A DNA stretch of 64,000 bases from Halomonas sp. MCCC 1A13316 (GTDB lineage: Bacteria; Pseudomonadota; Gammaproteobacteria; Pseudomonadales; Halomonadaceae): positions 2,170,001 through 2,234,000 of the forward strand of contig NZ_CP053382.1 of NCBI RefSeq assembly GCF_014931605.1. Direction: 5' to 3'. Position 1 is the stretch's first letter, and the number at the start of each line of letters is the position of its first letter. Position numbers and translations under genes: made by a program. A model generated the notes under the pieces. The model was not told where the DNA came from, ran no database searches, and saw only the letters and a program-made list of their open reading frames with translations. Positions 60,092 to 63,785 of the stretch are shown one piece after another.

Positions 60092-60108
60092 CATACCATA
60101 ATGGTATG
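60092..60108. promoter_or_regulatory. Perfect 17-bp palindrome in the metH/nfuA divergent region
   Basis: CATACCAT-A-ATGGTATG is perfectly symmetric and lies 49 bases before the nfuA ATG. It covers the likely nfuA -10 (CATAAT 60097-60102 or TACCAT 60094-60099, with TTGTCT 60071-60076 as -35). It is well placed to be an operator for nfuA. It does not match the IscR motifs I know. Confidence 0.6.
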
Positions 60109-60156
60109 TCACATATGGCCGGCCCGACGAGGCCCAGCCCGACCAGCGAGAACACC

Positions 60157-60747
60157 ATGAGCGAGATCATCCGGATTACCGACAGCGCCCAGGACTACCT
60201 CGCCGAGCTGCTCGAGAAGCAGAACGTCGAAGGAATTGCGGTGCGCATCTTCATCACCCAGCCGGGTACCCCCTATGCCGAGACCTGCCTGGCCTATTGC
60301 CGGCCTGGCGAGGAGGAGCCCAGCGATGAGCGCCTGGAGCTAGAAAAGATCACGGCGCTGATCGACAAGAACAGCATTGCCTTCCTCGAGGAAGCGGTGG
60401 TCGACTTCAATGCCGATCGCATGGGCGGCCAGCTGACCATCAAGGCGCCCAATGCCAAGATGCCTAAGGTCAACGCCGACAGCCCGATCGAAGATCGCGT
60501 CAATTACATCCTCTACAGCGAGATCAACCCCGGGCTTGCCGCCCACGGCGGTGAAATCAAGCTGGTCGAATTGACCGCGGATCAGGTGGCGGTACTCGCT
60601 TTTGGTGGAGGTTGCCAGGGCTGTGCAGCAGTCGATCTGACTCTCAAGGAAGGCGTGGAGAAGACCCTGATGGAGCGCATTCCTGAGCTTGCCGGTATCC
60701 GCGACGTGACCGACCACACCGACACCACCAACGCCTATTATCGCTGA
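60157..60747 (+). CDS. nfuA: Fe-S cluster carrier NfuA
   Basis: 196 residues from the ATG of [19 protein letters not shown]. An N-terminal degenerate A-type carrier domain (about 1-95) is fused to a C-terminal Nfu domain with the cluster-binding cysteines in [15 protein letters not shown] (about 150-153). It delivers 4Fe-4S clusters to client enzymes, especially under stress. SufE is encoded 2.6 kb away. A symmetric candidate operator overlaps the promoter. Confidence 0.95.
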
Positions 60748-60826: not shown

Positions 60827-61876
60827 TCATCGAACGCTCTCGGAGGGCTCCGCTGCAGAGTCAGAGTCTTCCTGCGCTTCAGCTCCTCCCTCCGAATGGC
60901 GCGACACCACGCCATCTTCACCCGGCTGCCAGATGCGCCGCATCAGCTCGGCATCGAGCGTGCGCAGGCGTGCCGCCTGCTCGTCGATATGACGCTTCTG
61001 ATCGTCGATGCGCGCCTGCAGCAGTGACTGCTCGTGGCGCATGGTATCGATGCGCTCCTCGGCGCGGCTCCTGGCCCACTGCGTCTCACGGTGCTGCTTC
61101 TCCTCGCGCCCCAGTGCTGCCTGCGTTTCGTGAAGCTGTCGCTGCAGGTTGTCCTGACGTTTCTCCAGCTGCTGGACGGTGGCGTCATGCCGCTTCTCGG
61201 CCGACACCCGTTCCTGCCGAGACTCGTCGAGCAGGCTCATAAGACGCGCCTCGGCCGCCTCGTGGCGCTGCTCCTCCTGATTCAGGCGCGCCAACTGCTG
61301 AGCGTCGCGGTCGGCCAATGCCTGCTGGTGGGCCTTACCCTGCTGCTCGTTCTCCTTTTGCAGCTTGTCGAGCTGCTGCAAGGAGCGAGCTAGCCGCTCC
61401 TCCAATTGGCGGGCGCGCTCCTGCCACTGGTCGCGCTCGGCTTCCACCCGTGCCAAGGCGGCACTGCGCTGCTCGAGACGCTGCTCCGTTCCCGCCAGGT
61501 GCGACGACAGGGCGGCTTCGCGCTGCTCGGCATCTTCAACCTGGCGCTGCGCCTCCTGCATGGCAGCCTCGATCTCGGCCACGCGTCGGTCGGCCTCCTC
61601 GCGGTAACTTGCCAGGACCTCACCGGCTGACTCCTGAGCCTTTTGCCACAGGCCTTCCGCCAGCCTGAGCACCGGCTCCGGCATGGCATGAGAGGCGGGC
61701 AGGTCACGGTTAGCGTCGCGCTGGAACCGCCACTCGCGCAGGTGATCGCTGATCGTAGTGAAACTGCCGGTTCCCAGCACGTCACGAATTTTCTGGACAC
61801 TGGGGGCATCCCCTTTGGCCAGCAGGGCCTCGATGGCCTGCTGAACGTCCTCGTACTGCACACCGCTGCGTGCCAT
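60827..61876 (-). CDS. KfrA-like DNA-binding coiled-coil protein
   Basis: 349 residues. The N-terminus (about 1-115) is a KfrA_N domain: VQQAIEALLAKGDAPSVQKIRDVLGTGSFTT and ISDHLREWRFQRD form the DNA-binding part. From about 90 to 315 the chain is an unbroken coiled coil rich in Q, E and R. The acidic tail has SEGGAEAQEDSDSAAE. Plasmid KfrA proteins bind palindromic sites in their own promoters and help stabilise plasmids. Here the gene is chromosomal and divergent from a tyrosine recombinase gene, with large palindromes between. AAGGAG precedes the ATG. Confidence 0.87.
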   Translation of the reverse strand: MARSGVQYEDVQQAIEALLAKGDAPSVQKIRDVLGTGSFTTISDHLREWRFQRDANRDLPASHAMPEPVLRLAEGLWQKAQESAGEVLASYREEADRRVAEIEAAMQEAQRQVEDAEQREAALSSHLAGTEQRLEQRSAALARVEAERDQWQERARQLEERLARSLQQLDKLQKENEQQGKAHQQALADRDAQQLARLNQEEQRHEAAEARLMSLLDESRQERVSAEKRHDATVQQLEKRQDNLQRQLHETQAALGREEKQHRETQWARSRAEERIDTMRHEQSLLQARIDDQKRHIDEQAARLRTLDAELMRRIWQPGEDGVVSRHSEGGAEAQEDSDSAAEPSESVR

Positions 61877-61996
61877 GACGATCTCCTTGGTGGTGTGGCG
61901 GCTGATCCTTGCTCACGCGGCAGGGCGTCGCTTGTTCTTGCTGTTGCCGTGCGCCCTGGATAGCTAAGCATAGCGACTTTCGTCCAATCCGAAAAG

Positions 61997-62073
61997 AAGA
62001 TTACATTACGTTTATTACGTAATAAACATAATGAAATGGTTATAAATTCAAGATTACCCGTCTTATCTTGAAT
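61997..62073. repeat. AT-rich spacer with inverted and direct repeats between kfrA-like and integrase genes
   Basis: A 30-bp palindrome spans 62004-62033: arms CATTACGTTTATTAC and GTAATAAACATAATG, symmetric except for one base pair, with a perfect core TTTATTACGTAATAAA (62011-62026). A second inverted repeat, ATTCAAGAT (62046-62054) and ATCTTGAAT (62065-62073), has a 10-base spacer. AAGATTAC occurs as a direct repeat at 61997-62004 and 62050-62057, 53 bases apart. They could be KfrA operators, recombinase sites, or both. Confidence 0.75.
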
Positions 62074-62131
62074 AAATTATCGCTACAGGCGAGACTCGAG
62101 CCATTCGATAGCAGAAACGGGAGGAGGCGCG

Positions 62132-63325
62132 ATGAGGGTACCGATCGGGGAGGGCGACGGCGCCGTTCTTCCCGGCCAGCAGCAGGGGGCGAGCATGCCC
62201 ACCCCGGCACTTGACGTGGCGCTGCCCGAGGCAAGCCGGACAGCACGTATTGCCGCCGGAAGCGACGCCGAGGCGGTAGCGCAATGGCTCGCCGAGTTTC
62301 GCGCCAGCCCGCAGACGCTACGCGCCTACCGCCGCGAGGCAGAGCGCCTGCTGCTATGGCTCGGGCGGGAAGGGCGCAGCCTGACCGAGCTGCGCCGGCA
62401 CGACCTCGATGCCTACGAGGCCTTTCTCGCCGCTCCCTCGCCGCATCAGCTCTGGGTAGGCCCATCACGGCCGCGCCATTCGCCGGACTGGCGTCCGTTT
62501 CGTGGACCACTATCCCCGGCCAGCCGCCGACAGAGCCTGATCATTCTGCAGGGTATGTTCACCTGGCTGGTGGAGGCAGGGTGGGTCAGCCACAATCCGT
62601 TCCGCCTGATGCGCGACAAGCGCCGCCGCCTCGACAATCGCCAGCCCGGCATCGATCGCTATCTGGAACGCCCGTTATGGGAGTGGCTATGGCAATGGTT
62701 GACACGACCGCAGCAGGGGAACATCAGCGTTCGCGAGCGATACATCCGGCACCGACGGATCATTATTTTCGGCTTCGCCTACTTGTTGGCGCCGCGAATC
62801 AGCGAGATGGCCGCCGCCGAAATGGGTGACTTCTTCCGGCGCGAAGGGAGATGGTGGTGGCATGTGGTGGGCAAGGGCGACAAGACGGCGCGAATACCGG
62901 TACCCGACGACATGCTGGCCCTGCTGGGCGGCTGGCGAGAAATGCTGGGCCTGGCACCCGAGCCACTTCCGGGCGAGGAGGGAGCCGTACTGCGCGGCCT
63001 GAATGGCCAGCGCGGCCTGGGCGACAACCAGCTCTATCGACTGATTCGCGATGCCTTTCGCCAGGCGGCCGATGCCCTGGAGGCCGAGGCGGGAGAGAAG
63101 GCAATGTCGCAAGTGGCCCGGCTGCGTGACGCGACCCCGCACTGGTTGCGCCATACTGCACTCACGCACCAGGCCCAGGCCGGCGTCGAGCTACGCTACC
63201 TCGCCAGCACCGCACGTCATTCCCGACTGGACACCACCGCGCAGTACCTGCATGCCGAAGACGAGGAGTGGCATCGCCAGCAATCCACCCATGTCTTGCC
63301 CGCCCGGGTGGAGGAGCCGGTATAA
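62132..63325 (+). CDS. Tyrosine recombinase / site-specific integrase
   Basis: 397 residues from the ATG of MRVPIGEGDG (GGAGGAGG upstream). An N-terminal SAM-like core-binding domain (about 45-165) precedes the catalytic domain (about 180-380). All active residues are visible: R222 in APRISEMAA, K248 in GKGDK, H337 and R340 in HWLRHT, H363 in ARHSRLDTTAQYLH, and nucleophile Y372. There is no cargo and no tRNA target at this locus, so it may be a resident, domesticated enzyme rather than an active island integrase. The stop overlaps a TATAAT box of sufE. Confidence 0.92.
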   Translation: MRVPIGEGDGAVLPGQQQGASMPTPALDVALPEASRTARIAAGSDAEAVAQWLAEFRASPQTLRAYRREAERLLLWLGREGRSLTELRRHDLDAYEAFLAAPSPHQLWVGPSRPRHSPDWRPFRGPLSPASRRQSLIILQGMFTWLVEAGWVSHNPFRLMRDKRRRLDNRQPGIDRYLERPLWEWLWQWLTRPQQGNISVRERYIRHRRIIIFGFAYLLAPRISEMAAAEMGDFFRREGRWWWHVVGKGDKTARIPVPDDMLALLGGWREMLGLAPEPLPGEEGAVLRGLNGQRGLGDNQLYRLIRDAFRQAADALEAEAGEKAMSQVARLRDATPHWLRHTALTHQAQAGVELRYLASTARHSRLDTTAQYLHAEDEEWHRQQSTHVLPARVEEPV

Positions 63326-63353: not shown

Positions 63354-63785
63354 ATGACCACCGAAGCCACGGCCGAACAAGCCCAGCAGGCCCTGCAGGA
63401 AGAGTTCGAGATGTTCGATAACTGGATGGATCGCTACCAGTACATCATCGACATGGGCAAGCAACTGCCGGCGTTTCCGGAGGAGTGGAAGACCCCCGAG
63501 CGCAAGATCCAGGGCTGCCAGTCGAACGTGTGGATGCATCATCGCCGCGACGGCGAGATGCTGCACTTCGATGCGGTGTCGGATGCCGCCATCGTCTCCG
63601 GCCTGATCGCGGTGCTGTTGCGTATTTACAATGACCGTCCGGCCGGTGAAATTCGCGATACCAGCCCGCATTTCCTCGGAGACCTGGGGCTCGACAAGCA
63701 CCTGTCCCCCACACGCAGCAATGGCCTGCACGCCATGCTCGGCAAGATCTACGAAGTTGCTGCGGAAGCGGCACCCGCTAGCTGA
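63354..63785 (+). CDS. sufE: Cysteine desulfuration protein SufE
   Basis: 143 residues from the ATG of MTTEATAEQAQQALQEEF (GGGAG upstream). The sulfur-accepting cysteine is C55 in KIQGCQSNVWMH. Other family features are DRYQYIIDMGKQLP and HLSPTRSNGLHAMLGKI. It takes persulfide sulfur from a SufS-type desulfurase. No sufBCDS genes are near, so it works from a separate locus. It begins 28 bases after the integrase stop. Confidence 0.95.
   Translation: MTTEATAEQAQQALQEEFEMFDNWMDRYQYIIDMGKQLPAFPEEWKTPERKIQGCQSNVWMHHRRDGEMLHFDAVSDAAIVSGLIAVLLRIYNDRPAGEIRDTSPHFLGDLGLDKHLSPTRSNGLHAMLGKIYEVAAEAAPAS

Follow-up and report, generated by a model that had tools for sequence, protein, structure and literature searches.

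A KfrA-Like Protein, a Tyrosine Recombinase and a Putative Composite Recombination Site beside dif in Halomonadaceae

Introduction

In the passages on Tn3-family transposons in two papers (PMC7157771; PMC4619425), the recombinase TnpS and the helper TnpT are encoded divergently, and the site rst between their genes combines two parts, a core that belongs to TnpS and an accessory repeat that belongs to TnpT. We found a comparable arrangement on the chromosome of Halomonas sp. MCCC 1A13316 (contig NZ_CP053382.1), where an AT-rich spacer of 255 bp separates two divergent genes, one for a KfrA-like protein (kfrA) and one for a tyrosine recombinase (table 1). The window analyzed is the 64,000-nucleotide stretch 2170001-2234000 of this single-contig genome of 4,490,931 bp; five-digit positions count from its first letter and seven-digit positions are those of the contig. 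A preliminary description, made from the letters of the window, had recognized the two divergent genes, in agreement with their Pfam matches (PF11740 and PF00589), but its statement that no function was described for such a pair was too strong, because TnpS/TnpT with rst, as presented in those passages, is similar (PMC7157771; PMC4619425). On balance, we consider it probable that the locus is a chromosomally resident, transposase-free resolution module of the TnpS/TnpT-rst kind, fixed beside the chromosomal site dif.

The systems XerCD/dif, XerS, XerH and XerL are a second basis for comparison, since they share with the Halomonas locus a chromosomal recombinase, a 28-bp terminus site of two 11-bp arms around six central bases (11-6-11), and the copying of their sites by plasmids. 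They differ from it in that the Halomonas system runs beside XerCD/dif rather than replacing it, and has a KfrA helper with a repeat block of its own. Moreover, cer, psi and pdif are plasmid sites that use the Xer recombinases of the host, and ColE1 carries cer.

Results and Discussion

Two Conserved Repeats in the Spacer

As had been noted before, the spacer is far richer in AT than its surroundings (47.5% GC against 62.2% in the window). GC falls to 31.4% at 61978-62095, and no second 118-bp stretch with a content this low exists in the 64 kb. Two inverted repeats lie in it, both of them already seen in the preliminary description. The first, called the block here, is composed of TTACRTA-like units flanking TTACGTAA; its palindrome is a 28-bp inverted repeat (62005-62032) centred on TTACGTAA, the 16-bp centre of which occurs once against 0.01 occurrences expected. 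The second, the core, reads ATTCAAGATTA-CCCGTC-TTATCTTGAAT, that is, two 11-bp arms with one mismatch and six central bases. At up to 3 mismatches, the core pattern was found at a single place in the window (on both strands, being near-palindromic), with 0 expected from 100 shuffles, and its 24-bp pattern occurs once in the whole genome. The bare 11-6-11 geometry (≤1 mismatch) is not unique: there are seven instances in the 64 kb, including the repeats of block and core, against 1.0 on average over 20 local shuffles. What marks out block and core among such repeats is their conservation in relatives. Together they occupy ~75 bp. The direct repeat AAGATTAC (61997 and 62050), which had also been pointed out, is real and its copies are 53 bp apart, but it is not kept in aligned relatives and is therefore incidental. 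A promoter scan found no promoter.

Distribution in Halomonadaceae

The family survey comprised 201 genomes of 24 genera, with cut-offs of E ≤ 1e-30 for the recombinase, E ≤ 1e-12 for KfrA and up to 3 mismatches for dif. The recombinase was found in 175 genomes and 20 genera, KfrA in 198 genomes and dif in 188. A first sample of the genus gave the recombinase in 34 of 37 genomes, our own included, and the three genomes without it include the incomplete G002 (79% complete) and G025 (85% complete). At the loci from the same genus, kfrA was the divergent neighbor of the recombinase gene in 29 of 30 cases, the 30th ending at a contig edge, and sufE lay downstream of the recombinase in all 30. The preliminary description had rightly supposed a resident two-gene system and had named sporadic presence with att repeats as the mark of a mobile element; the co-occurrence proved to be conserved across the family, and att repeats were not systematically searched.

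The core was present in all 29 loci fetched by protein, loci picked by the core pattern being excluded from this measurement, and 27 of them had no mismatch to AAGATTACNCGNCTTATCTT. Its variation in these loci was mainly confined to the central six bases, which is the pattern expected of a crossover site. A GTDB scan for the core pattern returned at least 119 stretches, and among the 80 matches listed 78 were from Halomonadaceae, to which we take the newer genus names to belong. Considering that inverted repeats adjoin a recombinase gene, one could also think of an invertible switch worked by the recombinase. This reading was rejected, because inversion needs two sites and the genome has a single core at up to 3 mismatches; moreover, kfrA, core and recombinase gene have an identical relative orientation across the 29 aligned loci, so that we find a switch hardly credible.

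The distributions of the two repeats followed different genes. With up to 2 mismatches and at any genomic position, the core was matched in 160 of the 175 genomes with the recombinase and in 1 of the 26 without it, G170, which had two weak matches; a reversed-pattern control gave 3 matches in the 201 genomes. Some extra forward matches, for example a recurrent one in genus g23, are perhaps due to chance or to coding sequence. The three recombinase-less loci that were opened (G028, G208 and G156) all lacked the core and all kept kfrA and a TTACGTAA-type block, with model scores of 17.3, 38.1 and 0.8 (0, 0 and 1 of 300 shuffles as high, respectively); thus G156 retains the block more weakly than the other two. 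In addition, the recombinase gene is displaced from the core by ~9 kb in G073 and G093, ~3 kb in G107 and ~1 kb in G029 and G035, and in all five genomes block and core still adjoin each other beside kfrA. Because the core tracks the recombinase, the block tracks KfrA and both stay by kfrA, we read them as the recombinase's part and KfrA's part of one putative composite site. The two palindromes, treated together in the preliminary description, are therefore elements that seem to have different owners.

Purifying selection and conserved catalytic residues indicate that both proteins are in use. The ratio of nonsynonymous to synonymous substitution rates was 0.10-0.22 for the recombinase and 0.09-0.33 for kfrA (six pairs each), and the catalytic residues were invariant in 28 of 29 aligned rows, the remaining row being gapped at that place; the copy in G024 contains a stop. 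These results bear on the possibility that an integrated mobile element, with an att site, has left this locus behind. The plasmid-borne relatives described below, one of them beside a Tn3 transposase, would suit such a remnant. Presence in 175 of 201 genomes, constant neighbors in the opened loci, intact catalytic residues, purifying selection and the lack of cargo all speak against it and make it very unlikely. A recent island remnant is rejected by the family-wide presence, and an ancient origin from a mobile element remnant is likely.

Relationship to TnpS/TnpT and to Plasmid Pairs

The layout is the same as in TnpS/TnpT-rst of Tn4651, with divergent genes for a recombinase and a helper and with accessory and core repeats in the spacer. 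The TnpT protein of Tn4651 (pWW0) contains KfrA_N (E 2.6e-26), and its identity to the KfrA-like protein is 40% over 87 N-terminal amino acids. A similar TTACATA block is present in the Tn4651 spacer (its score was reached in 3 of 300 shuffles) and in that of pND6-1 (0 of 300), while this likeness failed for pRK1-3 (29 of 300) and G051 (54 of 300). Unlike TnpS/TnpT-rst, the Halomonas system has no transposase, is flanked by nfuA and sufE, and is chromosomal, family-wide and located beside dif. BLASTP of the recombinase against TnpS gave no significant match. In the tree, it groups with plasmid recombinases of Cupriavidus, Undibacterium and Halioglobus (94/96, just below the strict mark), and TnpS and its pND6-1 relative group with XerC and XerD (99/97). 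The system would thus work like a plasmid or Tn3 resolution module, from which it may descend, but its recombinase, judged by sequence, is not a TnpS.

The closest relatives of the recombinase are plasmid-borne, and in such plasmid pairs the recombinase is 37-42% identical to the Halomonas one. A divergent KfrA_N partner was present in 6 of the 9 plasmid relatives opened: a full-length gene on pOLGA1, pSBC1_3 and the Rhodanobacter, Azonexus and C. taiwanensis plasmids (spacers of 164-181 bp) and a short frame on pRK1-3. No adjacent KfrA_N gene was found on the other three (pUKW01, pRR3-57 and C. metallidurans p1). One pair adjoins a Tn3-family transposase. A formal test for a 10-6-10 repeat was positive for the spacers of Azonexus, C. 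taiwanensis, pRK1-3 and pND6-1; it found no core in those of pOLGA1, pSBC1_3 and Rhodanobacter, where inspection by eye shows AAATTTAYGATAA-N6-TAATCG, which is less symmetric. By eye, a comparable block and core exist in most plasmid-pair spacers, and the pairs differ from the Halomonas one in their plasmid location and their arm sequences. The KfrA-like protein shares KfrA_N and a coiled coil with the plasmid KfrA stability factors, its gene being chromosomal here. Searches of Padloc, NCBIfam and PDB returned generic coiled-coil and Xer matches only, and the recombinase scored below the NCBIfam cut-offs for XerC (62.4 of 335 bits) and XerD (42.7 of 330 bits).

A TTACGTA-type block (0 of 300 shuffles as high) was also observed upstream of two plasmid KfrA_N genes that tblastn retrieved, the KfrA-like protein being the query: L272 (Xanthomonas pXAS220) and L274 (Klebsiella pPSKoxy4_2). 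Since these have no annotated recombinase neighbor, it may be that KfrA proteins generally use such a block as operator.

Location at the Replication Terminus

Just beyond the window, 7.8 kb from the core, lies a match to dif (2239836-2239859), found with a consensus that we take to be the canonical one. The right arm of the core, TTATCTTGAAT, and that of the dif match, TTATGTTAAAT, are identical at 9 of 11 positions, with two differences. In the 400 kb around dif, the maximum of the cumulative GC skew is at 2242676, and GGGNAGGG, presumably a KOPS-like motif, occurs 29 times to the left of dif and 5 times to the right, its complement 5 and 27 times. The core is a 28-bp site at the replication terminus, as are the sites of the XerCD/dif type. 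Distances were calculated from 150 recombinase rows and 119 dif rows; both features were available for 111 genomes, and in 110 of these they shared a contig. From the recombinase start to dif, the median was 6,999 bp and the maximum 51 kb, with 107 of 110 within 20 kb, and dif was downstream of the recombinase gene in all 110. The strand of dif was that of the recombinase gene in seven of them (G036, G130, G017, G018, G164, G093 and G073) and the opposite one otherwise. This link to the terminus, like the plasmid-borne cores described below, is not visible from the window and was found by genome and database comparison.

Our genome has an XerD above the cut-off and a second Xer-like gene below it, which we take for XerC. 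Since dif, XerD and the XerC-like gene are present, the recombinase and its dif-like site are additional ones at the terminus. In the open PMC literature, we found no Halomonas work that deals with a dif site together with XerC, or with chromosome dimer resolution, and term searches of PMC2731167, PMC3025954 and PMC9765430 (main texts) gave no occurrence of Halomonas.

Of 244 genomes of the order, 71 encode a member of a sister clade of tyrosine recombinases of ~420 amino acids (E ≤ 1e-60), for example G041 (L066), G054 (L071), G051 (L067), G052 (L069) and G057 (L072). This clade occurred in 56 of the 61 genomes without XerD (E ≤ 1e-60) and in 15 of the 183 with XerD (Fisher p 5e-35, uncorrected for relatedness). 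In most near-complete XerD-less genomes the gene is near mid-contig (0.49-0.53 in G041, G265, G291, G313, G448, G434 and G282), with exceptions at 0.60 (G432), 0.40 (G358) and 0.08 (G340), which suggests the terminus, provided that contigs start at the origin. In families of the order other than Halomonadaceae, the sister clade may have taken the place of XerCD; a passage of PMC2731167 places Saccharophagus among the organisms without dif/Xer. A shared dif-like site was not seen next to most of 20 sister recombinase genes.

Core Sites on Plasmids and Viral Contigs

The genomes G014, G020, G036, G064, G081, G106, G115, G148, G205 and G211 have extra core matches on contigs 6.5-20 kb long, which we infer to be plasmids. 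In G014 and G205, the central hexamer of this plasmid core is that of the chromosomal core. Exact end overlaps, as in circular contigs, were present in L115, L119 and L123 and were not found in L118, L121 and L122. One core-bearing contig, L116 (G106:C29, 7,661 bp), is a head-to-tail dimer of a 3,751-bp unit with halves 98.5% identical, either real or an assembly effect. In PLSDB, where so short a query yields weak E-values, our own core retrieved nine records, three of them from Halomonas (pIGAnt2, E 7e-4; pHAL40, E 0.4; p2-bachu37, E 5), and the plasmid-type core retrieved seven, four of them from Halomonadaceae (pHAL40, E 6e-3; pZB5060, pTHAF12_a and pTHAF12_c, E 0.02). The remaining matches look like chance, and the match in pZB5060 falls within an annotated hypothetical gene. 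As with cer, psi and pdif, these are small plasmids that carry a site and no cognate recombinase seen in the searches made; the difference is that the Halomonadaceae plasmid sites match the core of the second recombinase, not dif.

Among viral contigs (IMG/VR), 15 matches to a degenerate core were obtained, against ~14 by a rough chance estimate with an assumed collection size, and only three of them (L127, L128 and L132) had the full core with extended arms. Their block was weak or absent (2, 121 and 172 of 200 shuffles reached the best score). Genes for a P2-type major head protein and for a replication initiator of the plasmid type were identified on L132, and one for a ParA-like protein on L127 (six proteins tested), which suggests that these contigs are phage-plasmids using the core site. 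INPHARED gave no convincing core match among the best 12 of 34 and the best 12 of 48 records.

Based on the plasmid cores, one may suppose that the chromosome keeps a plasmid- or transposon-derived resolvase that small plasmids exploit, its own site serving only to autoregulate both genes. The plasmid-borne relatives of the recombinase and the presence of dif and Xer genes agree with this supposition. However, the core stays by kfrA where the recombinase gene is 1-9 kb away, so that it no longer lies in the promoter region of that gene, and the pair is held near dif across the family, though perhaps by synteny. We therefore regard service to plasmids only as rather unlikely.

Proposed Mechanism

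For the resolution module that we favor, binding, catalysis and the helper role can be predicted from the parts. The two arms of the core would be occupied by protomers of the recombinase, which would exchange strands in the central hexamer. The KfrA-like protein would bind the block and autoregulate its own gene; as an accessory factor it would also select the synapse, and its long coiled coil might hold two sites together there and favor resolution, as is presumed for TnpT. The earlier suggestion that KfrA organizes DNA for the recombinase is plausible. Block and core would act as a single composite site beside dif in the terminus. For small plasmids and phage-plasmids with a lone core, as for ColE1 with cer, the system would convert multimers into monomers, and it would probably resolve chromosome dimers too, as a second layer next to XerCD/dif. 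A bolder version of this reading, in which two chromosome-dimer systems operate in parallel at the Halomonadaceae terminus, the KfrA block rather than FtsK sets the synapse of the second, and plasmids and phage-plasmids parasitize it, is tentative and open to considerable doubt.

Several observations weigh against such a module. First of all, XerCD and dif are present, and the chromosomal need for a second system is not obvious. Nearness to dif is no independent evidence but inherited synteny, considering the shared ancestry and that nfuA-kfrA-sufE adjoins dif also in the recombinase-less G156. Plasmid cores come without a block, with at most one TTACRT unit in the 150 bp upstream, so KfrA may not be needed there. 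No recombination event at a core was found: in the sole cointegrate examined, pTHAF12_a of Halomonas sp. THAF12 (NZ_CP045400.1), positions 4317-27384 contain the whole 23,068-bp pTHAF12_c (NZ_CP045402.1) at 100% identity, and the plasmids join elsewhere, at an imperfect repeat, TCTACTTATTAAAATGATGATTTRAGRAAGTAGAG, that is probably the site of another recombinase. In fixed-offset scoring, with a model derived from the very 29 loci scored, the block reached at least 37 in 19 loci and 6 to 34 in the other 10, so that the spacing of block and core appears to be mostly, not strictly, held. Finally, 23 of the 26 recombinase-less genomes retain KfrA, which means that KfrA has some other use.

This last observation, together with KfrA in 198 of 201 genomes, leads to another explanation, namely that KfrA is the main actor, a terminus-linked protein of nucleoid organization or segregation, with the recombinase as a secondary or decaying partner. 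In agreement with it, KfrA lies within ~8 kb of dif in the recombinase-less G028, G074, G094, G146, G156 and G208 (by coordinates or opened loci). Yet purifying selection acts on the recombinase, the 400 kb of terminus contain a single exact copy of TTACGTAA, and the block model, which is AT-driven and weakly specific, shows no clear second site there. The model gave 74 matches above a score of 8, the best (31.2, at 2086641) exceeding our own block (31.0); because its top match is not this block, it is not decisive on an array of KfrA sites. A MatP-like array was rejected on the single exact TTACGTAA, and we judge KfrA as main actor improbable.

If the resolution module proposed here is real, a transposon-type module has been made a resident terminus system family-wide, next to XerCD/dif and not instead of it. 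The lineages that have helper and block without recombinase and core would then be a natural experiment on a lone KfrA/TnpT helper, and from the plasmid-borne cores one can predict how the small plasmids of Halomonas are kept as monomers. The small size of the composite site makes it directly testable.

Flanking Genes and Repeats at the Recombinase Gene

Table 1. Features of the locus in window positions
Feature	Position	Strand	Basis and remarks
nfuA, core flank outside the system	60106..60747	+	Pfam NifU and Fe-S_biosyn
KfrA-like (TnpT-like) helper	60827..61876	-	KfrA_N PF11740, E 7.1e-27; 349 aa (amino acids); DNA-binding domain and long coiled coil
AT-rich divergent spacer with composite site	61877..62131	.	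255 bp between kfrA and recombinase
TTACGTAA-type palindromic block, putative KfrA binding site/operator	62000..62037	.	Conservation; kept in recombinase-less genomes
28-bp dif-like core, putative recombinase crossover site	62046..62073	+	11-6-11 inverted repeat; conservation
Tyrosine recombinase	62132..63325	+	PF00589, E 1.5e-11; 397 aa; catalytic R222 K248 H337 R340 H363 Y372
sufE, core flank outside the system	63354..63785	+	Pfam SufE, E 1.5e-45; syntenic in relatives

Pfam matches and synteny agree with the earlier view of nfuA and sufE as core genes, and no cargo was seen in the interval between them. In several Halomonas (L013, L014, L015, L018, L024 and L030), 7-bp units are repeated in tandem at the start of the recombinase gene, between it and the core; examples are (AAGGAGC)n, (GGGGCGA)n and (GTGAGGA)n. 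These repeats could make recombinase expression variable.

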